From a virus: a stretch of DNA of 37,541 nucleotides. The position numbers and the translations under genes were made by a program. Positions within the stretch are counted from its first letter, which is position 1. The number at the start of each line of letters is the position of its first letter. The stretch lies in the IMG/VR virus record IMGVR_UViG_3300003886_000019, positions 1 to 37,541 of that record; one strand, given 5' to 3'. The notes beneath the pieces were generated by a model that searched no databases, had not been told where the DNA came from, and was given only the letters and a program-made list of their open reading frames with translations. Below, piece by piece: positions 92-36,517 of this stretch.

Positions 92-419
92 CAGATTCGA
101 ACTTGAGTTCGGCCAGTTTCTGTTTTGGACTGATCCCACCAGAGGAGGGCACTTGTGCTTGTTGTTGAGCGAATTGGTCTTGCTGGAGTCGGATGCGATC
201 TTGATCCTGTTCAAGCCGAAGATCATTTTGCAAGAATTGACGATCCTTGTTGGCTTGTTGTTGCGCATTCTGTTGTTTGATGGCGTCAGCTTGTTGGGCA
301 TCGCGTTGACTTTGCCCGAACTGATTACGCAGAGACAGACCTTGTTGAAGCCCGCCGACCAGATTACCATAAGGATTGGAATTGAGTCGGAATTGGTTCG
401 CCTGAACGAGTGGTGCCAT
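1..419 (-). CDS. Ejection-type virion protein, N-terminal part (split by the contig ends)
   Basis: This is the 5' part of a gene that continues in frame at 37541-36514; the joined protein is 451 residues. The ATG at 419 follows AGGAGG with an 8-base gap. Residues 1-129 are extremely glutamine-rich (about residues 36-90) with charged, coiled-coil-like character, and then pass into the alpha-helical remainder. It follows the gp7-like gene (424-1575) by 4 bases and precedes the 767-residue ejection-like protein, which is the order and composition of the P22 gp7/gp20/gp16 ejection cluster. The functional assignment rests on position and composition, not on a diagnostic motif. A copy of the dispersed motif at 134-147 encodes the SSGG of residues 92-95. 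Confidence 0.75.
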   Translation of the reverse strand, partial: MAPLVQANQFRLNSNPYGNLVGGLQQGLSLRNQFGQSQRDAQQADAIKQQNAQQQANKDRQFLQNDLRLEQDQDRIRLQQDQFAQQQAQVPSSGGISPKQKLAELKFESEEEQQKFENDLTEEDRNNSILTGVALSAVR

Positions 420-423
420 TTTA

Positions 424-1610: not shown

Positions 1611-2075
1611 ATGATCAAAATATATCAACATGAAACAGGGTTACAACCGGTTGAATCTTTTATAAAATTGCCTGAAATATCACGGTATCGCGTTGAAGAT
1701 TCTTACGATGAACAAGCATATTTCCCACCAAAGGGCCTTTGGATTGATTACCATGGTTTGGGTATGCTCAACTTTCTCAAAGAGTCCAGTTGTAGCTTAA
1801 GTATCCATGGATACATCTTGCGAAAACATTACCGTTACTACAGAGATATGATGGCCTTTGGCGTCAAGTGGTTCAACGCCAACACACCGCCTCATATCAT
1901 CAAGCTAACGGCAAAAGTGCCCGAATGCTATCCACAGACAATTGAGATATGTGCCAGTGGAATGACGCTGGAGGGGATCACTCGAATGGACTACCGAAAA
2001 AGGGGACGGATTTACAACAGTCGAATTTTTGGTGTAATCAAATTAAAGGCACGGAGCAGAAGTCCGATACAATAA
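1611..2075 (+). CDS. GNAT-like protein, possible gp14/DUF2824-type virion assembly protein
   Basis: The product has 154 residues. The central part (YYRDMMAFGVKWFNANTPP followed by alternating hydrophobic strands and LEGITRMDYRKRGRIYNSRI) reads like the acceptor half of a GNAT fold, where a beta strand gives the predicted effect on position and a basic helix follows. P22 gp14, a head assembly protein, belongs to a GNAT-like family (DUF2824) and lies between the stabilization/needle genes and gp7, close to this position. That makes it the best candidate. The strand is opposite to its virion neighbours and no Shine-Dalgarno site is visible before the ATG. The fold match is by eye; an unrelated hypothetical protein remains possible. 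Confidence 0.5.
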   Translation: MIKIYQHETGLQPVESFIKLPEISRYRVEDSYDEQAYFPPKGLWIDYHGLGMLNFLKESSCSLSIHGYILRKHYRYYRDMMAFGVKWFNANTPPHIIKLTAKVPECYPQTIEICASGMTLEGITRMDYRKRGRIYNSRIFGVIKLKARSRSPIQ

Positions 2076-2111: not shown

Positions 2112-2285
2112 ATGATGATAATCGACTTAGCAATTTCAAGCGGATTTCTGATCGTAGCATGGGCATTGATGATCAGCTTCAATTTACCAACATTCATAAC
2201 GTCTGTGGTAACCAGCACAATCGGTCTTGGTCTTTTCTCTGGTGGGATAATGCTCCTTAATGTCGCTTTAAGCGTAACCATCTAA
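2112..2285 (+). CDS. Small two-helix membrane protein
   Basis: The ATG at 2112 has GGAGA upstream with a 9-base gap and gives 57 residues; the longer TTG-initiated frame has no such site. Two hydrophobic helices cover residues about 4-21 and 27-55, separated by a short polar NLPTF turn. This is the shape of a small holin or inner-membrane accessory protein, but no family is recognised. It is the first of three consecutive small membrane-protein genes (2112-2866). A dispersed-motif copy (2234-2247) encodes the FSGG inside the second helix. Confidence 0.6.
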   Translation: MMIIDLAISSGFLIVAWALMISFNLPTFITSVVTSTIGLGLFSGGIMLLNVALSVTI

Positions 2286-2705: not shown

Positions 2706-2866
2706 CAGGGTTTTCACTTTTACCATTGATAGTATTTTGGATCGGATATACAATGCTTGTCGGATTCGTTGCAATAAACTTGGAGGTGTTATCGGTATTG
2801 GTTGTGTGTGTAGGTTGGGCAATGACAATTGTGTTAACAGCCTTGCTGTGGTTAGATGTGGTCTAA
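2702..2866 (+). CDS. Small two-helix membrane protein, holin-like
   Basis: This 54-residue frame starts at the ATG of an ATGA overlap with the preceding stop. Two hydrophobic segments (residues about 4-25 and 29-51) are joined by a short turn carrying N and E, and the protein ends LDVV. Size, topology and coupling to the membrane-anchored gene upstream fit a class II-type holin, but small membrane proteins cannot be classified from sequence alone. It is short enough to be missed by ordinary gene callers. SSB follows 22 bases later. Confidence 0.6.
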
Positions 2867-2888
2867 ATATAAAAGAGAGAAAATAAAA

Positions 2889-3320
2889 ATGGCTAGAGGT
2901 ATTAACAAGGTAATTTTAATTGGTAACTTGGGTAATGATGCTGAAGTAAAGGCGCTACCGAGTGGCACGACAGTCGCAAATTTGAGTTTGGCAACAAGCT
3001 CATCGTGGAAGGACAAGACGTCAGGTGAACAAAAAGAGCATACGGAGTGGCATCGATTAATTTGTTTTGGTCGTCTCGGTGAGATCGCCGGTCAGTACTT
3101 GAAGAAGGGTTCAAAGGTTTACATTGAAGGCCGTCTGCAAACGCGCAAGTGGCAAGATCAAGCAGGTGCTGATCGACACTCAACTGAAATTGTGGTGAGT
3201 GATCTACAAATGCTCGATGGTCGATCCGATGGTGCACCACCTCCGCCGCAAAAATCAGCAGTCGAGACCGCAAAGGCCAGCAAGCCAGTTGAAAACTACG
3301 ACGACGATATCCCATTTTAA
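2889..3320 (+). CDS. ssb: Single-stranded DNA-binding protein
   Basis: This 143-residue SSB coats single-stranded DNA during replication and recombination. It opens with [17 protein letters not shown], has the W-x-x-W aromatic pattern (SSWKDK ... TEWHRL) and the G[14 protein letters not shown] segment of the OB fold. It ends in a proline-containing linker and the acidic tip DDDIPF, which recruits partner proteins. The ATG at 2889 is preceded by AGAGAGAAAATAAAA; an earlier GTG would only add 11 residues not found in the family. It stands in the rightward small-gene island, far from the other replication genes (22-34 kb). Confidence 0.96.
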
Positions 3321-3636: not shown

Positions 3637-3648
3637 TCTCTGGTGGGA
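3637..3648 (-). repeat. Dispersed motif, intergenic copy
   Basis: This is an exact core copy (TCCCACCAGAG on the minus strand) of the genome-wide motif. It lies in the 117-bp gap between the terminator and the KilA-N gene, about 24 bases before that start codon, where it could act in cis. Confidence 0.7.
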
Positions 3649-5012: not shown

Positions 5013-6454
5013 AAGTTCACACTCCAATTAATACTGGCGGCTTGCACTCTGTTTGAACCATTTGCACCAGTGATTCTGGTGGTTATCATCAGGTTGTCAC
5101 CAGGGGTTAAGACGATTGTGTCGCGCATGTCTATCGTCGGGCTATCGTCACGACGACCTATTGCCGTGTGGACAAGTTGTCCCGATACGACGGTTAGAGT
5201 TTGTCTGGAAAACTGGATCGGTGTGGTGTTGTCCGACGGTTGCCAAATGATAGGCTCAACGGTTACAGCGTTGAGGTAGATGACGTAGATCGCCTTCTGT
5301 GTGACTGTGCTGTTGAAATGCGCAATCAACGGCTTCATGTCAACACGATTTAGTTTGCCGTTGAATATTTCAGGATTCTTCAAGGCCAACACCACCTCTT
5401 CTGCTGTGCTCTGTGTGTTGCTGACGTTACTGTTAGCGCCATAGGTTAGCAGCGGCGGTAGGATTATGCTACCACCATAGCCCATTGCCGCCTGCCCCAA
5501 TACCTCAATGTCTGTTGTGCCACCGTTAATATTTCGACTCGACCACGTTGCCGACAAGTTGGTTTCCGTCATGTTCAGTGTGGTGTTTTCATTCACAAAG
5601 TTGATGCGATGCACCTCAACGAACCGGCCGTCATGCACCACTGAAAAACTTAAGTCTCCCCATCCCATTGTTTGGAACGTGATCTCAAAGAGGTTGCCTG
5701 TTAACGGATCAAAAAATGGCAGTATATCCAGGTTCCATGTGCTTTTTGGCACGAAAAGTTCCACAGCAGCTTGCCCAACTTCAGCTTGTGCAAAGGTCGC
5801 CGCCGATGTTCCTAGTGCAGCGTATGAGTAGGCACCCAACCCTAAACCAACCCCTGGGGTTGTTGCTGATATGAAAACGCGATCCTGTTCACTACAATAA
5901 ATATGTAGAGGATCTAATGCGGCAAGTGAGGTGGCGACAAATGAGGCGACCTCTTCTGCCGATAAGCTAGCAGGGATAAAAAGATTGTTGACGATGCCGT
6001 TGATGGTGATAACAGCAAGGCCAGCACCACCTTGCCCCGATGTGACTGTCATGGTGACCTTGTCGGTGCGCCCGTTACGATCATATATGACGCCGAATAC
6101 ATCGTCGATAAACCCGAATCCAATGCGATTTTCAGGAGAACTTAGCCCTGCAAACTGTTCGTTGCCAACGACGCCTTGCACGAACCTTGCTGACATTCGA
6201 CAGCCTGATGACTCACCTGGCGCTCTATCTAAATGGCGACGGCTAAGTATCTCACCGATCCCACCAGAGTCTGTTCCTGAACTCGCTTTGAAGAGGTTGT
6301 TTTCAATTAGAGCGCTTGAGTCAGTGCCGACGGTAGTTAATTTTAGGGCTGATAGTGGGGTTGAATTTGAATTGACCTGAAAAGCGCGTTGCACTTCACC
6401 AATCTTAAGTTCACTGAATATGGTACTCGGCACATCTGGCGTAAGTAAATGCAT
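5009..6454 (-). CDS. Large beta-rich tail/virion structural protein
   Basis: The 481-residue protein is taken from the ATG at 6454, 11 bases after GGAG; an upstream GTG would add eight residues overlapping the preceding gene. It is beta-strand and Gly/Thr/Ser rich throughout, with several internal sheets and a C-terminal domain ending NLMITTRITGANGSNRVQAASINWSVNL. It lies directly after the gp10-like and small tail genes, where P22 carries its needle and tailspike accessory genes. The virion role comes from position and composition; a receptor-binding or tail-tip function is possible but unproven. A dispersed-motif copy lies at 6259-6269 (DSGG). Confidence 0.65.
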   Translation of the reverse strand: MHLLTPDVPSTIFSELKIGEVQRAFQVNSNSTPLSALKLTTVGTDSSALIENNLFKASSGTDSGGIGEILSRRHLDRAPGESSGCRMSARFVQGVVGNEQFAGLSSPENRIGFGFIDDVFGVIYDRNGRTDKVTMTVTSGQGGAGLAVITINGIVNNLFIPASLSAEEVASFVATSLAALDPLHIYCSEQDRVFISATTPGVGLGLGAYSYAALGTSAATFAQAEVGQAAVELFVPKSTWNLDILPFFDPLTGNLFEITFQTMGWGDLSFSVVHDGRFVEVHRINFVNENTTLNMTETNLSATWSSRNINGGTTDIEVLGQAAMGYGGSIILPPLLTYGANSNVSNTQSTAEEVVLALKNPEIFNGKLNRVDMKPLIAHFNSTVTQKAIYVIYLNAVTVEPIIWQPSDNTTPIQFSRQTLTVVSGQLVHTAIGRRDDSPTIDMRDTIVLTPGDNLMITTRITGANGSNRVQAASINWSVNL

Positions 6455-6455: not shown

Positions 6456-6815
6456 TTAAAGAATACTCCATTCCCCACCAGCGTCGGTGAAGACTAAGGT
6501 TGTTCGATCAAATGGGTTAAGCAAGTCGGTAGTGGCAAGCCCATCAAATGTTTGGCCATTACCATCCACGGTGACGACAGCGTTTCTGCGTTTGATTATG
6601 ACAGTCTCGCCGTTAGCAGGACTGGCGTTCAAAAAGATGGTGATTGGGAGTGGGTTATTGCAGATCAGTGTGATGCTAGACGATGTCGTGAAATCAGCCA
6701 TAACACTATCAGCCTCTGTTGGGACAAGTGATTCGAGAAAGGTGATGAATCGCAACGTCGCAGATCCATCTTCAGCGACAACCTTCTCATAGCGTTTCGG
6801 TGCGATTACTATCAT
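6456..6815 (-). CDS. Small beta-sandwich-like tail protein
   Basis: This 119-residue protein starts immediately after the gp10-like stop. The C-terminal half (NPLPITIFLNASPANGETV IIKRRNA VVTVDGNGQTFDG ... FDRTTLVFTDAGGEWSIL) resembles the small beta domains found at the ends of phage tail fibres and spike-associated proteins, with a repeated strand-turn-strand pattern and a final W. Its place next to gp10 suggests a tail-needle or tail-tip component. No exact family is claimed. Confidence 0.6.
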   Translation of the reverse strand: MIVIAPKRYEKVVAEDGSATLRFITFLESLVPTEADSVMADFTTSSSITLICNNPLPITIFLNASPANGETVIIKRRNAVVTVDGNGQTFDGLATTDLLNPFDRTTLVFTDAGGEWSIL

Positions 6816-8219
6816 TTACGATGTTCCTTGCTCGACGGTCGCACTCATACCCATTACATTGCACTCAACATTGTCGGTGATCTCAATTTTCACCACGCGC
6901 GTGATTGGAAACATCCCTTGTCTACGCCACACGATCCGCTCTTCATACTCACCTTTTAGACCAAGTCTACGTTCGAATTCGGATGTGAATGTTTTACCGC
7001 CATTGTCTGAATAACTGTAGCGAACGATAGGGTTGTCGGTGCCTAATACAAGCCCTGTTTGCATTAAAACCTCAAATTCACCTTCGAAAATGGGTAAGTC
7101 GTTGCCATAAAACGGTTGACTGATCATCTCACGTCGAATGCTTTGCCCAAATTGAAGGACGCTGCGATCAAAAACCCCGATGAGGTTTTCGGTACTGTAA
7201 ATGATGGACTGATTGAGGCGACGCACGATACCACCAACACTCCAATCCATTTCAAACCAGACACTACGACCTAATAATGTGGATGCCGTTGCGTTGTAGC
7301 AAAATATATTTGTGCCAACATTGAATATCGCAATGAACTGACCATCGATCTGATAGGTCATGGAAAATGCGTTGGCTATCTCATCGGATGAGAGCTTTTG
7401 CAACTGAAAATCGATAGCGTTTGTGGATATTTTGTTGACAGAGTTTGAACTTGTCACACGCCAGATGGCAGCCCTCTCATTCAGCCCACCACCGATGAAG
7501 CAGAATGTATTGTCGAATTCGATGATGCTGTTTTTGGCATAGACGCCTTTTTGAATGTTCCCACCAGGGACACGGACAAAAGGAAATCCCGCACCACCAA
7601 CGTTTTGGAACAGTTCAATGGTTTCTTCACCGAGGACAAAGAGTTCATTGCGGTTGACATGAAGCCCAACAATTTGATCAGGACTGATTTCAGCACTCCC
7701 GAAATCAAGCGCGTTGTAACTGAATGGATCGTTGAGGGCACTGTTGAAGAACGCATCACCATCAGCAGCGGAAAACACAAAGAATCCATCCTTGAACACC
7801 ACTTGACTGGCTTGCCTGAAGTCAACGTCTGTGATCTGTGTCACAAGCTGCGTGACGCTGTCGAACACAAATGAGTCAATGTCGGCCACAATGACAATGA
7901 AGCGACCGTTGGTGGCCATTGAGACGCGTTGATTGCCTGTGATAGCCACGTTGAGCACAGTGACTGTGTCGTCAATCTCAAGTCGCGCGAAGGTGTTGTC
8001 TTGCACGAAATAGGAGATGAGGTCGAGTGCGATTGCCCCTCTGAACAGTCCCACCAGAGAAGCGATCTCCGTTATACCTGGTGGTTGGGCTAGATAGTGT
8101 TGTGAAAGAGATTGCGATTCAGCAACGGTGGGGATCCAATTGAGACAGCGACTGGTACTGAACAGGGATGATGTGACCTGGTATGAGTCGAGCTGCAGGG
8201 GTAATGGCACCCGTCTCAA
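6816..8219 (-). CDS. Packaged DNA stabilization protein, P22 gp10-like
   Basis: This 467-residue tail hub protein seals the portal channel after packaging, together with gp4 and the needle. The N-terminal part (CLNWIPTVAESQSLSQHYLAQPPGITEIA) matches the gp10 pattern of a short structured start followed by a PGIT stretch. A beta-propeller-like body follows (FVVLGEETIELFQNVG-type strands), and the C-terminus SEFERRLGLKGEYEERIVWRRQGMFPITRVVKIEIT closely follows gp10 (RVLWKRVGRIRRLIGFKLRV). The likely start is the TTG of a TTGA overlap with gp4, with AGAGG eight bases upstream; a GTG six bases further in is the alternative. A dispersed-motif copy lies at 8049-8062 and a one-mismatch copy at 7559. 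Confidence 0.88.
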   Translation of the reverse strand: MRRVPLPLQLDSYQVTSSLFSTSRCLNWIPTVAESQSLSQHYLAQPPGITEIASLVGLFRGAIALDLISYFVQDNTFARLEIDDTVTVLNVAITGNQRVSMATNGRFIVIVADIDSFVFDSVTQLVTQITDVDFRQASQVVFKDGFFVFSAADGDAFFNSALNDPFSYNALDFGSAEISPDQIVGLHVNRNELFVLGEETIELFQNVGGAGFPFVRVPGGNIQKGVYAKNSIIEFDNTFCFIGGGLNERAAIWRVTSSNSVNKISTNAIDFQLQKLSSDEIANAFSMTYQIDGQFIAIFNVGTNIFCYNATASTLLGRSVWFEMDWSVGGIVRRLNQSIIYSTENLIGVFDRSVLQFGQSIRREMISQPFYGNDLPIFEGEFEVLMQTGLVLGTDNPIVRYSYSDNGGKTFTSEFERRLGLKGEYEERIVWRRQGMFPITRVVKIEITDNVECNVMGMSATVEQGTS

Positions 8220-8984: not shown

Positions 8985-10207
8985 GAAGTCGTTCTGACTG
9001 CAAAGCCAGGGTTGATAACTTTGACACCGAACAGGATGTCAAAACGATAGTTCAACTCATCATCAGTGATGTTGTACTGACGAACCGTACGGATGCTGAT
9101 GCCCTCAAAGTTTTCACGGCTAGATGTCGCACCGTCTGTTGGGGTATCGAGTTGCGCCATCGCCAAAGTGATAGCGTTCTTGTGGAAGGCCATGTTTTGA
9201 CGATGAACCGCTTCTGCAGCGCCTGTGATAACCGTAATGGCAGCATTGTCAGCAGGGGCAGCCACAACAGTTCTGAACGCACCTGAAATGATGATAGGTG
9301 GGCTGATAGTTAGCGTCGCATCATCACCGACTGAAGTGACGTCATCCAGAACCACGAATTGTTGAAGCACGCCAGTGGTCTCGCGAGTCCTGCGATTGAC
9401 TGAATCAACACCGGCTATCGTAAACACATCACCAGCATTCAAGACTGCAGTGCCGACCGTCCAACCATCGGTGATCAGAGTTTGGCTGTTGGTATCTTTG
9501 CTCAGCAAGTATGTGGTGTCTTGAGCAGCGCCGTTGATAAGAGGCGTGCCACCATGATCCCCAACAGTGTGCATGCGCAAAGATTGAGATTTGTAGATAT
9601 CAAAACCAGCGTACATGCCGATTGAGGCCTTTTCAATCGCCTTTTTGGCAATCGTTTGTGGGAAAACCAAACGTAGACCATCAGCAAGAGAGTTTGAAGC
9701 CGCAGGATCGTAGAATGCACAACGATTCTCCATGGGTACACCTAAGTCATCCAACTTTTGACCGGCGTTAGCCACATCAAGAAAAGTTGAAGGACTGGTG
9801 CCAGGCGTGCCCACAAAATTGTAAACTTCATTGTACTGATCAGCGATAACCGTCTCGACACGTTGCGCAAGTTCATGCATCGCAGGTCGAATGTAGCGTT
9901 CGTTGGCATCTTCAATCCGTAAAGTGAGATCTTCAGTCAAGACAGCAAAGCCGACATGATGACGTTGATCAAGTGTGACATTAACAATACCTTCTTCAAT
10001 GTCGCGCTTCACGAGAGTTGCACCAGCCGCGCTCTCGAACAAGACAGGTCGTCTGACGGAGACTGTACCGCCAACCTTACCACTGAAAACACGTGATTCA
10101 TCCAATTGACGATCCACCTTCATGGTCATCACCAAAGCGTTCAAGAACTCTTTTACAGCATAACGAGTGACGAGCGCTGTATTCTTAAAATCATTTGCCA
10201 TCGGCAT
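8981..10207 (-). CDS. Major capsid (coat) protein, P22 gp5-like
   Basis: This 408-residue HK97-fold coat protein is close to P22 gp5 in length (430) and layout: an N-terminal helix (KNTALVTRYAVKEFLNALVM), the extended loop region (GKVGGTVSVRRPVLFESAAGATLVKRDIEEGIVNVTLDQRHHVGFAVLTEDLTL), a spine helix with ADQYNEVYNFVGTPGTSPS, an inserted beta domain (about residues 210-320) and a C-terminal RQYNITDDELNYRFDILFGVKVINPGFAVR. The ATG at 10207 follows GGAGGG at good spacing; an ATG six bases later is the alternative. It sits downstream of scaffold and portal, though here the tailspike gene intervenes. Confidence 0.92.
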   Translation of the reverse strand: MPMANDFKNTALVTRYAVKEFLNALVMTMKVDRQLDESRVFSGKVGGTVSVRRPVLFESAAGATLVKRDIEEGIVNVTLDQRHHVGFAVLTEDLTLRIEDANERYIRPAMHELAQRVETVIADQYNEVYNFVGTPGTSPSTFLDVANAGQKLDDLGVPMENRCAFYDPAASNSLADGLRLVFPQTIAKKAIEKASIGMYAGFDIYKSQSLRMHTVGDHGGTPLINGAAQDTTYLLSKDTNSQTLITDGWTVGTAVLNAGDVFTIAGVDSVNRRTRETTGVLQQFVVLDDVTSVGDDATLTISPPIIISGAFRTVVAAPADNAAITVITGAAEAVHRQNMAFHKNAITLAMAQLDTPTDGATSSRENFEGISIRTVRQYNITDDELNYRFDILFGVKVINPGFAVRTTS

Positions 10208-17794: not shown

Positions 17795-17808
17795 TCCCAC
17801 CAGAGAAG
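17795..17808 (+). repeat. Dispersed motif copy next to the late promoter
   Basis: A perfect 14-base copy (TCCCACCAGAGAAG), followed by ATC as at 16114 and 34134, lies 8 bases upstream of the -35 box of the leftward late promoter. This is the usual position of an activator site or UP element. Confidence 0.75.
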
Positions 17809-19674: not shown

Positions 19675-19688
19675 TTTCTCTGTTGGGA
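19675..19688 (-). repeat. Dispersed motif, intergenic copy (AAC variant)
   Basis: On the minus strand this reads TCCCAACAGAGAAA. It lies between the stop of 19689-19988 and the start of the Rha-type gene. Confidence 0.65.
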
Positions 19689-24396: not shown

Positions 24397-26639
24397 TCAA
24401 ATACACCATCCTCAAATTCAGTTGATTTTAATTTTAAGTCAGCCCAATAAGTTCCGCGATTCGGCTCTCTTTTTTCTATTGTTGCGAACCCCAATGCCCG
24501 AATGTCTCGGTTGAAGTTCCTGAACCCCTTCGCACTCGTGTTCACTCCCTCCGTGTTGTAGACGGTAATGTAGCGGGTATACGCTCTATGTAGCTCTCGT
24601 ATCTCAACAAACCCACCTTTTGTCTTGCTTAATCGGTCTTCAACAAACGCAAACACAGGATTTCCTTCAGATAACCACGCCTTAGCAGCATCCAATGAGC
24701 GTTTTGGCGTCTGAAACCGATGTTTTCTTGAGACCAAATCAGCATGTGCCCCAAGCACTTTAGCCATGATCCCACTCATCTCCGCGTCTGATCCCGTGAT
24801 TCGACTTCCCAACAGAGGATCGCACTCATCGCCACTGAATGTTTTGGTGAATGGGATAGCCTGGACTCGTCTGCGGAGCGCGTTGGACATGTCGTTAAGT
24901 TTTGGAAACTCGTTGCAGCACATGAATAACGTCAGATTGCTAACAAAATTGAATGGTGTTTTATTCTTTGGGTTAGCTAACATCCTGAATGCGCCGCTAT
25001 ACTTCTTAATGGCATCATCATAAAGCTTCGCGGTCACGCTCAAATCCTCAACTAGCATCAACCGTTTTCCCACCAGAGTCGCTTCAAAGTGGGTATCCAC
25101 ACTCGCGGAGTTTGTGTGAAGCCCCGCTGCTCTACCATTGGTGCTCACAGAGAGATCCCCACTCAACTTTTCCAAAATCCTAATCAGCAAAGACTTGCCG
25201 TTGGATCCTCCACCGTGCAGCAACACCACCAACTCTAAGGGTTTGATGTGTTGCAGACTGTACCCGACCAATTCTAGGAAAAACTGCACCATCGCATCAT
25301 CACGCAAAATTTCCTTCACCGTTTTGTCAAATAACTTGCACGATGATTTTGGTATGTAATTAAAGTTCAACTTCATCGTGCAGTAATTTGACGGGTTAAA
25401 ACTAGGTTCAAAATGCCATTTTCGTCTGCCATCCGGTGCCCTGATGATCGTTCCGTTTTCGAATGTTATGGCATAGGGATTGGTCGCCTCTTGAATGATG
25501 CTGCTGATCACAATCGACTCATCGGCCTTAATTAGCGCCAAAATCGTCTTGATTGCAGTGGCCGTGCTGACAAATTTATGAGAATAATCCCGCAGATTCA
25601 CCATTATCCTTGACTTAAGATAGTTTTCAGAAATGGGCATCCAAATCTTATCGAAATGGTACAAAGAATCAGAACTGTCAAGGGCTAATTTTTCATTGGT
25701 CATCACAAATTCAGCAGCCTCAACATATTTATCAGAGGAATTCAACCCTGAATCGATCAGTTCCTGGATCATCTCTGTCGGAGGTGTTGTGATCGGCAAA
25801 GGTGCCACTGGGACCACCTCTTGCTGTGCTGATGGCTTTTGATCATCACTCCATTTGATGACAGAGTTGCGCTTTTCTTCCTCTGGTGGGATAGCTGCAA
25901 TCAATGTTCGATGCGTTGCTTGGTTCACATTTTCACCTCCTTTTAGCGAGTCCCATTTCGATCTCACCGTTTGCATTGACGATCCTTTACCTTTGAATCC
26001 ACCGCGCTGGCACCACTCAAAGAACTTTTCAAACCCATTGTCGGATCCGTTGCAAGTATGATGAGTCGCTGCCATGATTTTGAACCAACCATTATAGTCT
26101 TTGGCGTAATCTTTAACATCAATTAAGTTTAGATATATTTCAACACGGTCTGTCGTCACCTTGTCATGCGCCGCAGCAGGTGCCCTAACTTCACGCAAAA
26201 TACTTTTGTGGAACGCGCTCCCAGCAGAGATGAGAAACGGCTCACGGCCTTCACCTACGTACTTATACCTGAAGCCCATTGGCGTCACCGATCCTTCAGC
26301 AACAACATATTTACCCTCCTTAACATAGTCAACATTGTCACGGCTAGATATCAACGCTGTCTTTTCAATACCATCCCCTAACTCACAATAAATGTGGTAT
26401 CCCCGTTTCGTTTTCACAACACCATGAGAGTTTGCTAACATTTGTATTGACAGGCCAACACCTAATTTGTCAAGGATATCAGTTGTCATTTCAACCCTAT
26501 CGATATCAATAACAAACTCTCTGTCTTTTAATAACCATCCAACCATCATGACATTGGAGAAGTCAAAATTAACATAACTAATCGTTTGCCATTCCTTATC
26601 TCTAGGTAACTTACCCTTTAACGGGATATAATTTCTCAT
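24393..26639 (-). CDS. D5-type primase-helicase
   Basis: This 748-residue replication protein has three parts. The N-terminal 240 residues resemble a primase-polymerase: WLLKDREFVIDIDRV (41-49) and KTKRGYHIYCELG, followed by a PriCT-2-like stretch (NGWFKIMAATHHTCNGSDNGFEKFFEWCQRGGF ... SKWDSLK). The middle and C-terminal parts are a D5/SF3 helicase: Walker A GGGSNGKS (476-483), Walker B LMLVED (527-532), motif C TLFMCCNEFP (570-579) and arginines RRR (589-591). AAGGA precedes the ATG. It leads the leftward replication operon and would serve the family B polymerase on the other strand. Copies of the dispersed motif lie at 24807, 25068 and 25881, and a weaker one at 26219. Confidence 0.9.
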   Translation of the reverse strand: MRNYIPLKGKLPRDKEWQTISYVNFDFSNVMMVGWLLKDREFVIDIDRVEMTTDILDKLGVGLSIQMLANSHGVVKTKRGYHIYCELGDGIEKTALISSRDNVDYVKEGKYVVAEGSVTPMGFRYKYVGEGREPFLISAGSAFHKSILREVRAPAAAHDKVTTDRVEIYLNLIDVKDYAKDYNGWFKIMAATHHTCNGSDNGFEKFFEWCQRGGFKGKGSSMQTVRSKWDSLKGGENVNQATHRTLIAAIPPEEEKRNSVIKWSDDQKPSAQQEVVPVAPLPITTPPTEMIQELIDSGLNSSDKYVEAAEFVMTNEKLALDSSDSLYHFDKIWMPISENYLKSRIMVNLRDYSHKFVSTATAIKTILALIKADESIVISSIIQEATNPYAITFENGTIIRAPDGRRKWHFEPSFNPSNYCTMKLNFNYIPKSSCKLFDKTVKEILRDDAMVQFFLELVGYSLQHIKPLELVVLLHGGGSNGKSLLIRILEKLSGDLSVSTNGRAAGLHTNSASVDTHFEATLVGKRLMLVEDLSVTAKLYDDAIKKYSGAFRMLANPKNKTPFNFVSNLTLFMCCNEFPKLNDMSNALRRRVQAIPFTKTFSGDECDPLLGSRITGSDAEMSGIMAKVLGAHADLVSRKHRFQTPKRSLDAAKAWLSEGNPVFAFVEDRLSKTKGGFVEIRELHRAYTRYITVYNTEGVNTSAKGFRNFNRDIRALGFATIEKREPNRGTYWADLKLKSTEFEDGVFE

Positions 26640-26861: not shown

Positions 26862-27968
26862 ATGGCACACTCTTTATTATCACCAAGCAGCTCAAAACGT
26901 TGGATGATATGCACAGCATCCGTTATGGCAACCAAAGATCTACCTAACCCAAGTAGCCCTTTTGCTGAAGAGGGCACCTTTGCCCATGAAGTTCATGAGA
27001 AAATCTTAATGGGGATGACGATCGACGGGCTTGATCTCCCACCAGGGATGTTGGATGCGGTGACTGTGTCGACAAACTACATTCATTCGCTCGTATCTGT
27101 CAACCATCCTGTTGATCTTCTAATTGAAGAGTACTTACCCTTAGTATCATTAGGGGTTGAGGGGCTTGAGGGAGGGACGGCGGATGTGGTCGTTGTGAAT
27201 TACAACGCTACTGATCGAAATGTCATCACTTCAGTTGAGGTAGTTGATTACAAGCATGGCCGAGGGTTAGTTGAGATTGAAGATTGTGGCCAATTGATGT
27301 TATATGCCATTGGTGTGTCGCTGAAGTTCAATTTAGCCGACACAGTCCCCATCCGAATGACCATTGCGCAACCCCGCGCGTTTCATCCCGACGGGTTGAT
27401 AAGAAGCGATACCCTTCTGGTGGGAGAGCTTAAGGGATGGCTATACAGTGAGGTGATACCAAAAGCGAGAGAGGCATTTAGCGACAGCCCAACATTCATC
27501 ACGAGCATTGACGGTTGCCGTTGGTGTTTGATGAATGGCAAGTGTCCGGCGCAAGTGGATCAAACATTGAAGGTGATGGCAAACGTTGCCCCATTTGTCG
27601 TCCCACCGACCGGTGCTGATGAGTTGTTGGCAAACCTACCATTCATTAAAACGTTCATTAAAACGTTTGAGAGTGGCGTGCATGATGAGGTTTTGAATGG
27701 TTCTAAAGATTACCCCTTGCTTAAGATTGTCGTTAAGAAAAAGAATCGCAAACTAAAATCCGATGCGGGATCCATACTGGCAAAAGAGTACCCTGATTTA
27801 GTCAATGACATGTTCGTTCGGGCAACATTGAAATCGGCATCGCAGTTGGAGAAAATTGCATCAATTGATAATAATCTCTTAAGGGATTTGCTTGACACTT
27901 CAGAGGTTGACGAACTTTGTGTCGTTGCTTTAGATGATAAAAGAAATGAGGTGGTGCCTGATGAGTGA
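26862..27968 (+). CDS. DUF2800-type PD-(D/E)XK nuclease
   Basis: This 368-residue protein opens with AHSLLSPSSSKRWMICTASV and EEGTFAHEVHEKIL. These are followed by the nuclease core GGTADVVVV (about 104-112), EVVDYKHGRG (126-135; D...ExK pattern) and QLMLYA (144-149). A C-terminal CRWCLMNGKC cluster (219-228) may hold an iron-sulfur cluster or zinc, as in Cas4/AddB-type nucleases. In other phages DUF2800 genes stand in replication/recombination blocks, as here just before a DNA polymerase. Its last bases overlap the polymerase ATG. Confidence 0.83.
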   Translation: MAHSLLSPSSSKRWMICTASVMATKDLPNPSSPFAEEGTFAHEVHEKILMGMTIDGLDLPPGMLDAVTVSTNYIHSLVSVNHPVDLLIEEYLPLVSLGVEGLEGGTADVVVVNYNATDRNVITSVEVVDYKHGRGLVEIEDCGQLMLYAIGVSLKFNLADTVPIRMTIAQPRAFHPDGLIRSDTLLVGELKGWLYSEVIPKAREAFSDSPTFITSIDGCRWCLMNGKCPAQVDQTLKVMANVAPFVVPPTGADELLANLPFIKTFIKTFESGVHDEVLNGSKDYPLLKIVVKKKNRKLKSDAGSILAKEYPDLVNDMFVRATLKSASQLEKIASIDNNLLRDLLDTSEVDELCVVALDDKRNEVVPDE

Positions 27969-29730
27969 TATTGTTGTTTTTGATGTTGAGATTTACAAGA
28001 ACTATTTCCTACTGAAAATGAAGGAAGTTAGTAGTCAAAAGATAGTCGGGTTTGAAATGTTCAATGAGTCTCGGTTAAGTGAGCGAGACAAAGGTCAGAT
28101 TGTAGCGACCATCAACAAGTACACTATGGTCAGCTTCAATGGGATTAACTTCGATCAACCGATCATATCAGCGGCGTTAGGTGGTTGGCCTGTTGGTGAG
28201 ATAAAGGAACTCTGCGATGCAATCATTGAGCAAAGACTGCAACCATGGATGCTGAAGAAGATGTACGGGCTTGATATCATACCGATGCCGAGTCATATCG
28301 ATCTGATTGAGGTCGCACCGCTGAAGGGTTCTCTGAAGCTTTACGGGGCAAGGATAGGTGGGATCAAGTTACAGGACTTACCGATCCCACCAGATAAGTT
28401 CATAAGTGAAGATGATCGTAAGGTATTGTGGGACTATTGTGACAATGATCTGGCCATCACTGAATTGTTGTTCAACAAACTCGAACCTCAAGTGAAGTTG
28501 CGATTGGAAATGGGATATAAGTATGTGTCAAAATCAGACGCACAAATTGCAGAGACATACTTGAAAGAGAAATTGAACATTCTCTACAGAGCGCCGAACA
28601 CTATCCCTGAATCAATTCGATATGTCCCACCAGAGAACATTAAGTTTGAGGGCTGCGATACCGGCGAGTTGTTAGATTTTTACCGATTGCACACATTCAC
28701 GATTAATGAAGACACGGGGCATCCCGATGTGGTGAGCGATATCCCTGAACTTCGCATTGGTGACACGAGATACAAACTCGGCTTAGGTGGTATCCACTCC
28801 AAGGACAAGTCATGTGAGCATTTAGTTGGCGATGGGATTTTAATGGAAAAGGATGTCGCCGCGTACTACCCTAGAATCATTCTAAATAATGAATTGTTTC
28901 CACCACAATTGGGGCAAGCATTTCTAACCGCATATGAGGAAATTGTAAATAGAAGATTGCATGCAAAAAAGACTGGCGATAGTGTCACAAATAACTCATT
29001 GAAAATTGTGATAAATGGCCTATTCGGTAAGTTTGGTTCGATGTACGCAATGGTTTACTCACCAAAGCTTCTCTTGCAAACCACCATCACAGGTCAGCTA
29101 TCGCTATTAATGTTGATCGAACGCCTTGAACTAAGGGGTATCCGCGTTGTAAGTGCCAACACGGATGGCGTCTTGATAAAGACAACCAAAGATATGCAAT
29201 GTGAAATAGATAACATTTGTGAGCAATGGATGAAGGACACCGATTATGTTCTTGAAGATACAAATTACGTGCGAGTTAATTTTCAGAACGTGAACAATTA
29301 CGTCGGCATCACCGCCGATGGTAAGATTAAAGGTAAGTCAGCCTACGCCGACCGAAAAGGAGAAGAACTCAAATCAAATCCAAAATGCGATGTGGTCACC
29401 AGTGCCGTTCATAATTACCTAAAATCAAACATCCCCATTGAGCATACAATTCGAGAGTGCAACAATGTGCCTGACTTTTTGGCGGTTCGAACAGTCAACG
29501 GTGGTGCAGAAAAAGATGGCGAATACTTAGGAAAAGTGGTTAGATGGTATTACAGCGGGAGTGATACCGCGATACATTACGTGAAGAATGGCAACAAAGT
29601 CCCGAAGAGCGACGGGGCAACGCCATTGATGGATTTAACAGGCGCTACGGTGGAAAACATGGACATAAATTACAGTTGGTATATCAATGAAGCAGAGAGA
29701 AATTTGAAGCGATTGGGCGTGGCTACATAA
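27961..29730 (+). CDS. Family B DNA polymerase with 3'-5' exonuclease
   Basis: The 589-residue replicative polymerase starts at the ATG at 27961 behind AGGTGG and overlaps the previous stop. Exo I: VVFDVEIYKNYF (DVE at 8-10). Exo II: VSFNGINFDQP (58-67). Exo III: YCDNDLAITE (159-168). Polymerase motif A: DVAAYYPRIIL (298-308). Motif B: NNSLKIVINGLFGKFG (344-359). Motif C: SANTDGVLI (398-406), in which the usual YxDTDS reads NTDG, keeping the second Asp. The length is that of the short phage B-type enzymes (DNA_pol_B_2 group); with a D5 primase-helicase present, protein priming is not required. Dispersed-motif copies lie at 28385 and 28625. Confidence 0.92.
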   Translation: MSDIVVFDVEIYKNYFLLKMKEVSSQKIVGFEMFNESRLSERDKGQIVATINKYTMVSFNGINFDQPIISAALGGWPVGEIKELCDAIIEQRLQPWMLKKMYGLDIIPMPSHIDLIEVAPLKGSLKLYGARIGGIKLQDLPIPPDKFISEDDRKVLWDYCDNDLAITELLFNKLEPQVKLRLEMGYKYVSKSDAQIAETYLKEKLNILYRAPNTIPESIRYVPPENIKFEGCDTGELLDFYRLHTFTINEDTGHPDVVSDIPELRIGDTRYKLGLGGIHSKDKSCEHLVGDGILMEKDVAAYYPRIILNNELFPPQLGQAFLTAYEEIVNRRLHAKKTGDSVTNNSLKIVINGLFGKFGSMYAMVYSPKLLLQTTITGQLSLLMLIERLELRGIRVVSANTDGVLIKTTKDMQCEIDNICEQWMKDTDYVLEDTNYVRVNFQNVNNYVGITADGKIKGKSAYADRKGEELKSNPKCDVVTSAVHNYLKSNIPIEHTIRECNNVPDFLAVRTVNGGAEKDGEYLGKVVRWYYSGSDTAIHYVKNGNKVPKSDGATPLMDLTGATVENMDINYSWYINEAERNLKRLGVAT

Positions 29731-29731: not shown

Positions 29732-30175
29732 ATGCGCTCCCAACAGAGGGTTGCCCCATCGCAGTTAGCATACTTTTGGGCACTGGCCGAGACCATTTTA
29801 GTTGGTGGTGCCGTTGAGGAACGACCGATCGAGCGCTTTGTCTTGGCTATCAGGGAGGGCACTCGAATGACTGACCAACTGATCGCCGTGTTGATGATAA
29901 GCCGTGACAGAATCGGTCTTGCCGAGCTGTTCTGCGTTGACAACCTTCTGGTGGGAAAACGCTTGTTGAGTCGCAGGAGTATAAGTATAGCTTCAGCATT
30001 CTATGGCACCATTAAACCTACACCACAGCAATGTTACGATGTAATCACATATTTGAACAAAGGAGGTGCGCCGAACCATAGAGACTTTTCCTTGAGCACC
30101 ACGGCGGTGATTGAGAAGGTTGATTTTGATTTAATTATAAAAGAGAGAAAAAATGTTAATACAGCTATGCGGTAG
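29732..30175 (+). CDS. Hypothetical protein in the replication operon
   Basis: This 147-residue protein starts one base after the polymerase stop. It is a helical, basic protein (LAYFWALAETILVGGAVEERPIERFVLAIREGTRMTDQLIAVLMISRDRIGLAELFCVDNLLVGKRLLSRRSISIASAFYG ... ITYLNKGG). No known domain. It overlaps the dNMP kinase start by 23 bases. The dispersed motif occurs twice in it (29738 in AAC form, 29946 with one mismatch), in opposite orientations. Confidence 0.65.
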   Translation: MRSQQRVAPSQLAYFWALAETILVGGAVEERPIERFVLAIREGTRMTDQLIAVLMISRDRIGLAELFCVDNLLVGKRLLSRRSISIASAFYGTIKPTPQQCYDVITYLNKGGAPNHRDFSLSTTAVIEKVDFDLIIKERKNVNTAMR

Positions 30176-31154: not shown

Positions 31155-31684
31155 CAAAATTCGTTGATGTCCCACTTGAGTATGTTCATGACGTTTTAAC
31201 GGCAATCAACCTTGATCCTAATTTGAAAACAAGCGATGCGGCTAAAATGCTCGGCGTAACCCACCAGAGGTTGCGTAATGAGGTGCTGAAGATGATTGAG
31301 ACACTTGGGCATGACTTTTTTCGAGACACAGATGTTGTTGACGATACAAAGGCGACATTCATATCCCCCGCGGGGAAGAAAAGTGCGTGTTACAGACTGA
31401 CTGAGGTTGTGTTCATAAACATCATGCTAAAGTATAACATCCACTTTAGAAAACACGTGATAAGCGAGTGGATGGCCATCGACATCGACAGCGACATCGA
31501 TGATTTGAAATACACGTCAGTGCGGGGCTGGTTGAGGCGAAACCTTGATGAAGAAATTAGTCAATTCGAATTCATTCAACTTGACGCGGCGTGCGATAAA
31601 GAGTGCAAAAAACAAAACGTTGAAATACGTGAAGAAGGAGGTGTGAACCTTTACCCGAGTCAAATAATTGAAGATTGTTTCTAA
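31151..31684 (+). CDS. Rha-like regulator with divergent C-terminal module
   Basis: This 177-residue protein starts at a TTG in a TTGA overlap; the strong AGGAGG nine bases upstream supports that start. Residues 25-110 read as an HTH/Rha-like domain (KTSDAAKMLGVTHQRLRNEVLKMIETLG ... ACYRLTEVVFINIMLKYNIHFRKHVISEWM). The end (YTSVRGWLRRN ... LDAACDKECKKQNVEIREEGGVNLYPSQIIEDCF) is a diverged relative of the module in the genes at 3672 and 18906 (SIKxY ... C..C ... I.I ... YP..II). Dispersed-motif variant at 31259. Confidence 0.65.
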   Translation: MTKFVDVPLEYVHDVLTAINLDPNLKTSDAAKMLGVTHQRLRNEVLKMIETLGHDFFRDTDVVDDTKATFISPAGKKSACYRLTEVVFINIMLKYNIHFRKHVISEWMAIDIDSDIDDLKYTSVRGWLRRNLDEEISQFEFIQLDAACDKECKKQNVEIREEGGVNLYPSQIIEDCF

Positions 31685-31769: not shown

Positions 31770-32342
31770 ATGCAAAAAATCGATTCTAAGATCACAGGGT
31801 ATGAAGTGGTGGCGGCGGACGAACCTCCAATGACACTGCGTGAGTATATCAAACGACCAAAATCACTGGTGGGTTGCACATACAAGGTCACAACACCACT
31901 GTCCGATCACTCCTTGTATGTGACGATCAACGACTACGTGCTCAATAAGGGCCTGGTGGGAGAATGTCGGGTTCCGTTCGAGATCTTCATCAACTGCAAG
32001 AGTATGGATAATTTCCAATGGATCGTGGCACTAACACGAGTGATTTCAGCGGTGTTCAGAAAAGGTGGCGACATTACTTTTCTGGTTGGTGAACTCAAGG
32101 CTGTGTTTGATCCCCGTGGTGGTTACTTTAAAAAAGGAGGTAAATACATGAACTCCCTTGTTGCCGAAATAGGGGATGTTATTGAGACGCACCTAATTTC
32201 AATTAAGGTCATCCCACCAGAGGAAAAGAAGGATCAGTTTCCTGAGCACGCAACCGTTTGCTCAAAATGTCGGGATAAAGCGGTCGTGAAGATGGATGGT
32301 TGTGACACATGTATGAGTTGCGGAGAAGCAAAATGCGGATAA
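31770..32342 (+). CDS. Orphan NrdJ-type TSCPD domain protein with zinc ribbon
   Basis: In this 190-residue protein, the segment YKVTTPLSDHSLYVTINDYVLNKGLVGECRVPFEIFINCKSMDNFQWIVALTRVISAVFRKGGDITFLVGELKAVFDPRGGYFKKGG matches the TSCPD domain that ends B12-dependent ribonucleotide reductases (NrdJ). The C-terminus CSKCRD ... CDTCMSCGEAKC is a four/five-cysteine zinc ribbon, also as in NrdJ. No catalytic reductase lies in the window, so it may be an accessory to a host enzyme (NrdJb-like) or a regulator of it. The neighbouring dNMP kinase and MazG-like genes agree with a nucleotide role. Confidence 0.8.
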   Translation: MQKIDSKITGYEVVAADEPPMTLREYIKRPKSLVGCTYKVTTPLSDHSLYVTINDYVLNKGLVGECRVPFEIFINCKSMDNFQWIVALTRVISAVFRKGGDITFLVGELKAVFDPRGGYFKKGGKYMNSLVAEIGDVIETHLISIKVIPPEEKKDQFPEHATVCSKCRDKAVVKMDGCDTCMSCGEAKCG

Positions 32343-33745: not shown

Positions 33746-34217
33746 TCGCATGTATGGCTAAAAAGTAAGCATCTGATAAATCAAACCGGCCTTTGCCTTG
33801 CCCTGCGAACGCCTCTTGCATAGAGTTTGGCATGGCAGCGTAAATGTCCGGTTTCTTAGCAGCACCAGATCCCGTGGCTAGTCGTTTCAGGGTTGTTGGT
33901 GTGATAGTGATAGGGTAGACACCAGAGTGCCTGTATAAGTGCTGGCAAAGTAGGAAATATAACCCCGCTAAATCTCGCGTCCCTTGCCCAACTGATCCAT
34001 AACTCAACCCCTCAATCGCTATCCTAGCCCCGCCGTCGTGTTGCCGCAAGGCTAAAATGACTTCACTGCAAATGTACTTCAGTCGGTAATGAATATTACT
34101 GAACTGTCTAGGCTTCGTCTTCACCAAATGATGTCCCACCAGAGAAGATCCCTCTTCATTGAGCACAACGATACCCGTCGACGTCAGCGATTGATCGATG
34201 CCAATCAGCAGACTCAC
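33720..34217 (-). CDS. RuvC-like Holliday junction resolvase
   Basis: This 165-residue RNase H-fold nuclease has LLIGIDQSLTSTGIVVL (Asp8), ARIAIEGLSYG (Glu69), PTTLKRLATGSGAAKK and RFDLSDAYFLA (Asp146, Asp149), the four acidic positions and the V/L-K-x-x-x-T-G-x-G motif of RuvC. Phage versions resolve branched replication intermediates before packaging. The start is a GTG in a GTGA overlap with the 767-residue protein upstream. Motif copies lie at 34134 and over the stop/start junction at 34217. Confidence 0.85.
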   Translation of the reverse strand: MSLLIGIDQSLTSTGIVVLNEEGSSLVGHHLVKTKPRQFSNIHYRLKYICSEVILALRQHDGGARIAIEGLSYGSVGQGTRDLAGLYFLLCQHLYRHSGVYPITITPTTLKRLATGSGAAKKPDIYAAMPNSMQEAFAGQGKGRFDLSDAYFLAIHATRELDQVA

Positions 34218-36517
34218 TCTGGTGGGAGACCTTCATCGGCGTCAGCAATCTCCATCAAAGCTTGTGAGATTGAGTTGTACGCAGGTGCACCTTTTTTGAA
34301 AATATCACCAGGCCTACTGTTCAAAACTCCTATTTTGAAATCAGGATTAAACATTAGTTCTGCAAGCTTCTCTTGTTGTCTATCTCTACCTTTAGCTTTA
34401 AGAACGGCGTAGGAAATATCAGTGAGATGTCCAACAAGTGATTTATTGGTGAGAGCAGATCCTGATCCTTGCATTAACGCCATTAAATTGCTCGCCGTAC
34501 TTGATCCCTCATGCCGACCAACTTTTACTCGTTCCATAATGTTGAATAGGGCATCGAAATTAAGTTTGGCTTGAGGCCGCATCGCCGCCATAATTTGTTT
34601 TCGATTGACCTCATTACCAAAGATGGCTTTTTGTAATTTAGCAGGAGAGATATCCCCTGACACATCGATTGATCGAATCTGTTTTAATACTTTTGCTTTT
34701 ACAATATTATCCCACGCCTTTTGTCCACCAGCTGTACTCCTTATCAACTTACGAGCTTGCTCTGTGGCTGTCTCGGTAACCCCTGGTCCAAACAATTGAT
34801 CTGCAACTTTTTCCAACTTTGTGTCGGGGACTTTATTGATTTGTGGTAACAAACTCTCTTCAATAGCGTTAACATTTTTCGACTCTTTGGCAAACCGTTT
34901 ATCAGCCTTGACAAACTTAGGACTACTCGACAATAGGAGGGCATGGAGGTCGTCGACAAAGGGCCTGATCGCTCGTTTCGTGTTGGCATTTATTGAGCTG
35001 GTGGGATCATATGCCTTCATTTGCCTCAGGATATCAATCTTAGCGGTTTGAAGTAACTCCAAACTTGGTAGTTGCCCTTTTGCCCCTGATGTTAGTTGAA
35101 CAAATTTGGTGAGCGCTTTGGCGGCATCCGATGATGGTGATATCGTGTTACCATCCAACATGTCGGCAACCTTTTGATGCAACGCACTTGTGTCAATCGC
35201 ACGTGCGGATGGATCATCAAATGCCTCTTTATAGAGTGGGGCTACAATATCTGATCGCGCCTTTTTAGCATCTGATAATACTTTTTTACTTGCATCCTGC
35301 AGCGACTTAAATCCATCTGGCGACGCCTTGCCGATAGTAATTGTATCAATAACAGCCATCGCTGCATTCAGCGTCGCTCGACTCTGTTCCTTGAGTGCTT
35401 TAGCGGCAACCTTACCGCTCCCCGATAGTTGTGGTAGTAGTGCTTGCGTCTTTAAATCGCTCCCTAACATCGATCTTTGAGCGACGAACAAAGGGATAGT
35501 CTCTTCAGCAATCCCTTCAACCAACGCTAAATCCTTACCCAACTGCTCAGCCCCTTCTTCAATGCCTTCAGACCGCTCCACCGTCTTCTTAAATCGTTTA
35601 GTTAGGGCACCAGGTATTAACTCGCTCGCACCACCAATCGCCGCCGACACCGCCACTTCACCTAAATCAAGATCACGCTCACGGCCAGCAGCGATGCCCG
35701 CGCCTTGAATCGCCGCATCAGTCGCACCGCTAGCAGCCACACCAACCCCTGTGCGAGCAGCTAACCCACCAGCGATAGCAGCAACCCTACCAGCAGGGAG
35801 AAACGCGAGTATATTTGAAAACACATTTTGTGCATCCGCCATACTGAAGCCTGGTTTATTTAACACCGCTTTTTTATCAAATCCAAATTCATTTTCAGGT
35901 AAATTCACAATAGTATTGCCCTTAGAATCAGTCTCAAAACTAATTCCAGGGATGTTTTTCGTCAGAATATCTTTCCTATCCTTCTCGTTAGCAGACACCA
36001 TCATAGCGCCTGTGATCTTAGCTTTATCTTCAAGACTTACATAAGCATTTGATAATTCAGATAACTCACGTGTTTGATCGGTTTTCCGATCGGAACCTGT
36101 TACCCAATCCCAGCCACTCTGAAGCGCATCACCAATGCCGATCCCATCCAACACAGTCCCGCCAACTGACGCATCTTGAATCTGCTTTATCTTCTTTTCA
36201 GCAGAGGGTTTGGTAAATTGCTGATTGTAACCAGCCAATCGATCCTCCAGACTTAACGGAGTCGGCTGTTGAACTTCTCTGGTGGGAGGTGGTTGTTCAA
36301 TCACAGGGGCCGAACGTGCTTCTCGCCGCTGGATCATCAGGTCAATCATATTGACGTTGGGATCGTTTTGATCGAGAGCTGTCCCACCAGAGGGGATAGG
36401 TGTCGGCGTTGGTGCTGGTTGGGCCACAGGGGGTTGCGGCGTAGCGCTGCGAGATTCACGGCGTCTAATCATGAAGTCGACCATTGACTCACCATCATTA
36501 GGTGCATGTAAGCTCAT
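34214..36517 (-). CDS. Large ejection-type virion protein
   Basis: In this 767-residue protein the N-terminal 110 residues contain a duplicated MVDFMIRRRESRSATP / MIDLMIQRREARSAPV motif separated by proline-rich spacers. About residues 220-300 are a Gly/Ala-rich, membrane-active looking stretch (FLPAGRVAAIAGGLAARTGVGVAASGATDAAIQGAGIAAG). The rest is long amphipathic helices. This composition and its place after the gp7-like and gp20-like genes fit the largest P22-type ejection protein (gp16 role). No lytic transglycosylase motif is seen. It starts in an ATGA overlap with the preceding gene. Confidence 0.72.
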   Translation of the reverse strand: MSLHAPNDGESMVDFMIRRRESRSATPQPPVAQPAPTPTPIPSGGTALDQNDPNVNMIDLMIQRREARSAPVIEQPPPTREVQQPTPLSLEDRLAGYNQQFTKPSAEKKIKQIQDASVGGTVLDGIGIGDALQSGWDWVTGSDRKTDQTRELSELSNAYVSLEDKAKITGAMMVSANEKDRKDILTKNIPGISFETDSKGNTIVNLPENEFGFDKKAVLNKPGFSMADAQNVFSNILAFLPAGRVAAIAGGLAARTGVGVAASGATDAAIQGAGIAAGRERDLDLGEVAVSAAIGGASELIPGALTKRFKKTVERSEGIEEGAEQLGKDLALVEGIAEETIPLFVAQRSMLGSDLKTQALLPQLSGSGKVAAKALKEQSRATLNAAMAVIDTITIGKASPDGFKSLQDASKKVLSDAKKARSDIVAPLYKEAFDDPSARAIDTSALHQKVADMLDGNTISPSSDAAKALTKFVQLTSGAKGQLPSLELLQTAKIDILRQMKAYDPTSSINANTKRAIRPFVDDLHALLLSSSPKFVKADKRFAKESKNVNAIEESLLPQINKVPDTKLEKVADQLFGPGVTETATEQARKLIRSTAGGQKAWDNIVKAKVLKQIRSIDVSGDISPAKLQKAIFGNEVNRKQIMAAMRPQAKLNFDALFNIMERVKVGRHEGSSTASNLMALMQGSGSALTNKSLVGHLTDISYAVLKAKGRDRQQEKLAELMFNPDFKIGVLNSRPGDIFKKGAPAYNSISQALMEIADADEGLPPE

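Follow-up and report, generated by a model that had tools for sequence, protein, structure and literature searches.

A phage genome that repeats one short, asymmetric word throughout its length, in unrelated genes and in any reading frame, raises the question of what reads that word. Here, this question is addressed for the virus record IMGVR_UViG_3300003886_000019 (37,541 nucleotides, analysed at its full length and referred to as the window) and its word TCCCAMCAGAG. The word proves to be a genuine DNA signal, directional and under strong selection, and it may well serve as a priming site for a primase that the phage itself encodes.

A dispersed, directional word in the window

The word occurs in the window as 26 exact copies, or as 37 copies when up to one mismatch is allowed (the word stands about every 0.8–1 kilobase), against a mean of 1.04 and a maximum of 4 in 100 dinucleotide shuffles. 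The exact copies comprise 19 of TCCCACCAGAG and 7 of TCCCAACAGAG, with 11 further copies carrying one mismatch, and the 37 sites are distributed over the plus (22) and minus (15) strands. An earlier note, made from the letters alone, had already described a motif repeated about once per kilobase. That motif is real and its coordinates agree with ours, as do the 19 copies of TCCCACCAGAG and the 22 plus-strand sites, whereas the tallies for TCCCAACAGAG (6), one-mismatch copies (9) and the minus strand (12) had been too low.

The strict core of the word is CCCAMCAG, present in 45 copies versus 1.7 (independent, identically distributed bases) or 2.6 (Markov) expected. This core is preceded by T in about 34 of the 45 copies and strongly prefers AG behind it, while an RAG extension past the word is weakly preferred (R in 32, A in 19 and G in 20 of the 37 sites). 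No mismatches fall at C2–A5, C7 or A8 in the one-mismatch sites, the ends of the word tolerating them. On the complement strand the word reads CTCTGKTGGGA (core CTGKTGGG), in which GTGGG is present in 33 of 45 copies and a T stands directly 5′ of the core in 35 of 45.

Selection acts on the DNA

The earlier note had proposed that selection acts on the DNA, and had named a codon-preserving shuffle as the comparison by which this could be refuted. When synonymous codons were shuffled within genes (300 shuffles), a mean of 3.2 one-mismatch coding sites (maximum 8) was obtained versus 31 observed, and 0.37 exact coding sites versus 20 observed, thereby upholding that proposal and ruling out a protein-coding explanation of the word. 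Moreover, the exact 11-mer is compatible with the encoded amino acids at 27 places, of which 20 actually carry it. Peptides able to encode the word amount to 22 per 10,000 residues in the window versus 7.6 in other phage loci (662,000 residues), and to 3–12 per 10,000 in the compared relatives. This threefold excess over other phages means that amino acids were changed to build sites, and most sites needed such changes and arose by substitution. Alignments to relatives indeed contain ordinary substitutions (e.g., YIDAIKLTVSGGY vs. YIDAIKEAGKEGY, or IPPD vs. IKPD). An inserted mobile element was rejected as the source of the copies, as these alignments give in-place substitutions with no matching insertion and the information stops at the edge of the word.

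Of the 37 sites, five fall entirely outside genes, 14 share the strand of their gene and 18 are on the opposite strand, and this mixed orientation rules out an RNA signal. The sites are independent of gene strand, reading frame, and gene starts and stops, and are not located at promoters. Their spacing is somewhat even, with a minimum start-to-start distance of 84 bp among the 46 core sites (P=0.008).

The word is absent from relatives that share only virion genes with the window (virion proteins 43–63% identical); these relatives are also without most of the window's early genes. Among the matches listed for other IMG/VR phages the word was not found, and no other IMG/VR contig was enriched for it. 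In bacteria, a complete 16-mer scan of one genome per species (84,980 species), with good power for an uptake-like word with the same flanks and weaker power for an 8-mer Chi, returned 108 single matches, and the genomes checked further were not enriched. Neither 11-mer counts in 369 Gammaproteobacteria nor 10-mer counts in 399 Pseudomonadota revealed a host-like excess. That neither the relatives nor any of the bacteria searched have the word strongly supports the earlier suggestion that the word is the recognition site of a phage-encoded protein.

Cultured phages carry words of the same kind

Comparison phages were chosen by a shared polymerase or primase type, and dispersed words were sought in them without assuming one (a few genomes being analysed minus their last 1–2 kb). 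Pseudomonas phage 73 was found to contain TGTGGGCA as a dispersed word (19 copies vs. 0.26 expected), FtMidnight contains the same word, and the dispersed word of Alteromonas phage R7M is TGTGGTTA. These words are almost always intragenic (18/19 sites in phage 73, 23/24 in FtMidnight and 43/46 in R7M) and occur in both orientations. In a wider panel of phages with FtMidnight-like primases (25–72% identical to that of FtMidnight), TGTGGGCA was dispersed in phages of Burkholderia, Rhodobacter, E. coli, Sphingomonas, Achromobacter and Acinetobacter (14–24 copies each, versus 0–2 for reversed-word controls), i.e., across seven host genera when counting Pseudomonas, and more distant members carried TGTGGTCA or TGTGGTTA instead.

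In all 14 cultured phages with an FtMidnight-like primase, the top dispersed 8-mer was a TGTGG word (the TGTGGGCA / TGTGGTYA kind), with z between 13.7 and 39.8; the corresponding value was 24.8 for the window and at most 11.7 for all other phages tested. PF22763, the model of the helix-bundle domain (HBD) of the NrS-1 polymerase, matched the primases of FtMidnight and phage 73 over the cut-off and that of R7M just below it. Most of the 14, scanned apart from KL1, RcTitan, Shy and EC151, have a detectable HBD of this type, not all of them over the cut-off, and JenP2 gave no match. Among 39 IMG/VR control loci, only one (L071) had TGTGGGCA as its top word, and in an unplanned check of 15 virus records, the window included, only the record of this same locus was found to have an HBD. 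This record (IMG/VR 3300045391_000439) is that of an uncultured phage, and its NrS-1-type HBD lies in an 804-aa frame elsewhere in the record. The words thus follow the primase/replication module rather than the host or the virion genes, which for the window is covered by the absence from virion relatives only. That related words in other phages follow this module had been overlooked in the earlier note.

Three further repeats were encountered in these searches. A weak dispersed word, TGT[AT]GTGC (14 copies vs. 1.7 expected), in one relative (G003) may be a minor signal in its own right. The repeat GTACAAGCATA (L007/G012) was discarded as a dispersed word, as it turned out to be repetitive protein. 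Finally, AAGGGGCY of Proteus phage Isfahan was rejected as a counterpart, since it forms six closely spaced, terminator-like inverted pairs along the genome and is probably a repeated terminator.

Same-strand spacing is regular in most comparison phages

Spacing was assessed by permuting strand labels over fixed positions, a procedure that leaves regularity unchanged if strand does not matter. In 12 of 14 phages, permuting the labels made same-strand spacing less regular (P<0.05), as illustrated by Shy, where the coefficient of variation (CV) was 0.23 as observed, 0.66 with permuted labels and 0.88 with random positions. Over the first ten genomes, the window among them, the Stouffer z was –5.8, a value that overstates independence because the phages are related. 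In the window itself, spacing was more even than that of random positions (P=0.02–0.03) and not significantly more so than with permuted labels. The per-strand regularity of the comparison phages would be expected of sites that are read on a single strand, but not of double-strand regulators.

A proposed role in priming

The reading we favor, at somewhat better than even confidence, is that the words are strand-specific priming sites for the PrimPol-type helicase-primase of the phage. It has three parts: the primase would be the reader, primer initiation would be the step concerned, and the word of the window would be the counterpart of the words in the other phages. All four Pfam domains of this primase (Prim-Pol, PriCT_2, D5_N and DUF5906) score over the cut-off, its PHROG assignment is DNA primase, and its AEP-like DxD (VIDID) and H (D45, D47 and H82) are invariant in a four-way alignment. 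It thereby has the hallmarks of an AEP/PrimPol helicase-primase, i.e., a Prim-Pol domain with DxD and H, a PriCT domain and an SF3-type helicase. A structure model of its N-terminus was too poor for use (pLDDT 34), and no relative of it was found in IMG/VR by peptide patterns.

AEP primases bind their recognition site on the template through the HBD, the site being GTG for the pRN1 primase (PMC8718748). NrS-1 PrimPol recognises TTTGGTTA, with GTGG or GTGA being used more efficiently, and its primer begins opposite the base immediately 5′ to the site (PMC8718748, PMC7102993). On the favored reading, the template strand would read 5′-CTCTGKTGGGA-3′, of which the enzyme would recognise the GTGG-containing core CTGKTGGG, starting primers there whenever that strand is single-stranded. 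The primer would start just 5′ of the core and, because a T stands there in 35 of 45 copies, would begin with A; the new strand would open with the purine run A-G-R-A-G. On either strand exposed during replication, the primase part would find the word and lay down the primer, which the family B polymerase would then extend. Evenly placed words on both strands would keep gaps short. As either strand can be the template, both would need a word every one to few kilobases, and the phage would therefore keep it everywhere, whatever the frame, and pay for it with changed amino acids.

Most known primases recognise three-base words, which need no selection; a primase that reads 8–11 bases, on the other hand, would have to be served by the whole genome, which would account for a word each kilobase in unrelated genes. 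The sites of the T7 primase (GTC, or (G/T)2GTC with a 3′ flank) are likewise dispersed lagging-strand template words to which the flank contributes (PMC12839067), but they are 3–5 nt long, occur by chance and belong to an unrelated primase fold, whereas the words described here are 8–11 nt long and selected. A further likeness is to NrS-1 PrimPol, also an AEP primase-helicase with GTGG in an asymmetric template word that is read as a single strand.

Several observations weigh against this reading. NrS-1 has no more than two copies of its 8-nt word, at the genome centre (PMC7102993), unlike the genome-wide word of the window. The window primase is of the PriCT_2 subtype, PF22763 giving no match to it and PriCT_2 occupying the corresponding position, and hhalign (single sequence) does not align it to HBD-type primases. 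Furthermore, 12 of the 45 cores are CTGTTGGG and have no GTG. Two genomes with the same primase subtype, G010 and PaMx74, carry no comparable word, and a third, PHS21, has only 8 copies of AAGTGGGR. The 14 phages with TGTGG words are mutually related and do not count as 14 independent cases, and the spacing in the window, while going in the same direction as in the comparison phages, does not differ significantly from that with permuted strand labels (P=0.15–0.20). The reader could also be another protein of the module, such as the polymerase, exonuclease, SSB or Sak4, because these are inherited together with the primase. One reading of the subtype comparison is that most Prim-Pol/PriCT_2 enzymes read a short GTG-like word and that the one of the window became strict.

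There is about an even chance that phages replicating with AEP/PrimPol enzymes generally keep genome-wide, strand-specific, regularly spaced priming words of 8–11 bp (TGTGGGCA, TGTGGTTA, TGTGGTCA and CTGKTGGG) that anchor primer starts at defined positions and override protein sequence. On our best reading, the pattern of a priming-site array spans many phages; nothing relevant on these words or on dispersed priming sites was found in the open-access literature searched. If true, every primer position in these phages would be predictable from sequence, and the word pattern would mark the replication module in uncultured phages. The cultured panel of FtMidnight, Shy and JenP2 (E. coli K-12) makes the priming reading directly testable.

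Other possible readers of the word

Among the alternatives, the one that survives best, though we deem it unlikely, is that the words are Chi-like sites of the phage itself, i.e., directional words at which its RecB-like exonuclease or its Sak4/SSB recombination proteins would halt degradation or bring the annealing protein onto the DNA. The same modules indeed encode Sak4 and a RecB/Cas4-like exonuclease, Chi is likewise strand-specific, and Chi is over-represented in phages without RecBCD inhibitors (PMC3784561). Phage P1 accumulates host Chi, with 27 octamers in 50 kb (positions 1–50000) versus 1.2 expected, on both strands, and can be seen as the host-set counterpart of dispersed phage words, being similarly directional, intragenic and strongly over-represented in both orientations. 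Yet G010, PHS21, PaMx74 and Isfahan have a DUF2800-type exonuclease and no such words, GTGG is a known recognition word of PrimPol and not of such exonucleases, and the Chi sites of P1 are clustered (CV 1.9) whereas the present words are regular.

It is quite improbable that the word is instead set by the host, with the RecBCD of an unsequenced bacterium reading CTGGTGGG-like sites that the phage carries for survival, for which P1 provides the precedent and the 28 copies of TCTGGTGG, with seven of the eight bases of E. coli Chi, provide the likeness. The P1 word is an 8-mer without flank preference and is set by the host enzyme, whereas that of the window is an 11-mer with flank preference, and the comparable words of other phages follow the phage module and remain constant across seven host genera. 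No scanned bacterium was enriched, and TCTGGTGG was among 25 octamers tested in Proteobacteria but outside the five inferred Chi motifs (PMC8022716). The counts do not support the Chi-like guard considered in the earlier note either, the enrichment lying elsewhere than on the E. coli Chi octamer (5 copies of GCTGGTGG, 28 of TCTGGTGG and 33 of CTGGTGGG).

Stoperator- or operator-like sites, at which a KilA-N, Rha or sigma-like repressor of the phage would act to silence or mark the genome, are hardly probable either. The window encodes at least six Rha/KilA-N-related proteins, and the known stoperators of mycobacteriophages (L5, Bxb1) are short, asymmetric and dispersed, with tens per genome and an own version per phage lineage. 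However, those stoperators have one orientation relative to transcription (PMC6550527), unlike the 14 same- and 18 opposite-strand sites of the window, and the per-strand regularity in the comparison phages is not explained by a double-strand binder. The location of the sites, away from promoters and gene starts, also argues against the KilA-N, Rha and sigma-like readers that the earlier note had put forward. Overall, the interpretation in that note is partly supported. Moreover, the window proteins scanned included none recognisable as an integrase or CI-type repressor. The 17-bp repeats of Cluster O phages (Corndog) offer another likeness, with ~34 copies, about a third of them intragenic, and no function assigned (PMC4351075), but they are palindromes, and their density is higher at one end of the genome.

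Lastly, a self-recognition or uptake word that the phage would have in common with a naturally competent host, also suggested earlier, would fit the density of ~1 per kb on both strands and within genes, as in the uptake words of Neisseria and Haemophilus, but is scarcely credible given that the 84,980-species scan gave single matches only and that neither a host word nor another enriched IMG/VR contig was found.

Gene content and site positions

The window carries an exact 91-bp direct terminal repeat (1–91 and 37451–37541), and the 37.5-kb record is therefore probably complete (or circular). Its virion genes are Sf6/P22-like (terminase, portal, major head protein, head-closure and ejection proteins), and its early genes comprise a PrimPol-type helicase-primase, family B polymerase, RecB-like exonuclease, SSB, Sak4-like ATPase and RuvC. 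Gene calls are our own. In Table 1, the strand of a site is the one that reads TCCCAMCAGAG, the proposed template strand being the opposite one; the 11-bp sites stem from the scan with up to one mismatch and the core-only sites from the CCCAMCAG counts.

Table 1. Word copies and replication-module genes in the window.
Feature	Position	Strand	Remark
PrimPol-type helicase-primase	24393..26639	-	Proposed site reader; Pfam, PHROG, alignment
Family B DNA polymerase	27934..29730	+	41–42% identity to those of phage 73, FtMidnight, R7M, PHS21
DUF2800 / RecB-like exonuclease	26862..27968	+	Same module as primase
AAA_24 / Sak4-like ATPase	22309..23187	-	Same module as primase
Single-strand DNA-binding protein	2856..3320	+	
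Site, exact	134..144	+	
Site, 1 mismatch	1723..1733	+	
Site, exact	2237..2247	-	
Site, exact	3638..3648	-	
Site, exact	6259..6269	+	
Core-only site	6474..6481	+	CCCACCAG
Site, exact	6714..6724	-	
Site, 1 mismatch	7559..7569	+	
Site, exact	8049..8059	+	
Core-only site	9136..9143	-	CCCAACAG
Core-only site	9560..9567	+	CCCAACAG
Site, exact	10983..10993	+	
Site, 1 mismatch	12041..12051	+	
Site, exact	13091..13101	+	
Core-only site	13712..13719	-	CCCACCAG
Core-only site	15314..15321	-	CCCAACAG
Site, exact	15934..15944	-	
Site, exact	16114..16124	+	
Site, exact	17014..17024	+	
Site, exact	17795..17805	+	
Site, exact	18530..18540	-	
Site, 1 mismatch	19047..19057	+	
Site, exact	19678..19688	-	
Site, exact	20172..20182	-	
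Site, 1 mismatch	22932..22942	+	
Site, exact	23751..23761	-	
Core-only site	23975..23982	+	CCCAACAG
Site, exact	24807..24817	+	
Site, exact	25068..25078	+	
Site, exact	25881..25891	-	
Site, 1 mismatch	26219..26229	+	
Site, 1 mismatch	27037..27047	+	
Site, 1 mismatch	27415..27425	-	
Site, 1 mismatch	28385..28395	+	
Site, exact	28625..28635	+	
Site, exact	29738..29748	+	
Site, 1 mismatch	29946..29956	-	
Site, 1 mismatch	31259..31269	+	
Core-only site	31866..31873	-	CCCACCAG
Core-only site	31953..31960	-	CCCACCAG
Site, exact	32212..32222	+	
Site, exact	34134..34144	+	
Site, exact	34217..34227	-	
Core-only site	34998..35005	-	CCCACCAG
Core-only site	35765..35772	+	CCCACCAG
Site, exact	36277..36287	-	
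Site, exact	36382..36392	+	

Three tandem paralogs (52–68% identical) lie at 20330–22332, and a segment upstream of them recurs near 20021, 21112 and 21736. By eye the paralogs resemble sigma factors, but they are without a Pfam, PHROG, phage or PDB match; the sigma-like protein had no match in phages nor in the 369 genomes, and a structure model of the paralogs was too poor for use (pLDDT 50). The six Rha/KilA-N-related proteins are located at 3672–4337, 18906–19619, 23926–24396, 31151–31684, 32743–32991 and 33005–33745, two of them having a common C-terminal domain (48% identity over 116 aa) and two a common KilA-N part (62%). Finally, a stretch of ~0.9 kb without a recognised gene (17788–18690), situated between the terminase-side genes and a Rha gene and containing two copies of the motif, may be the place of a replication origin or a control region.

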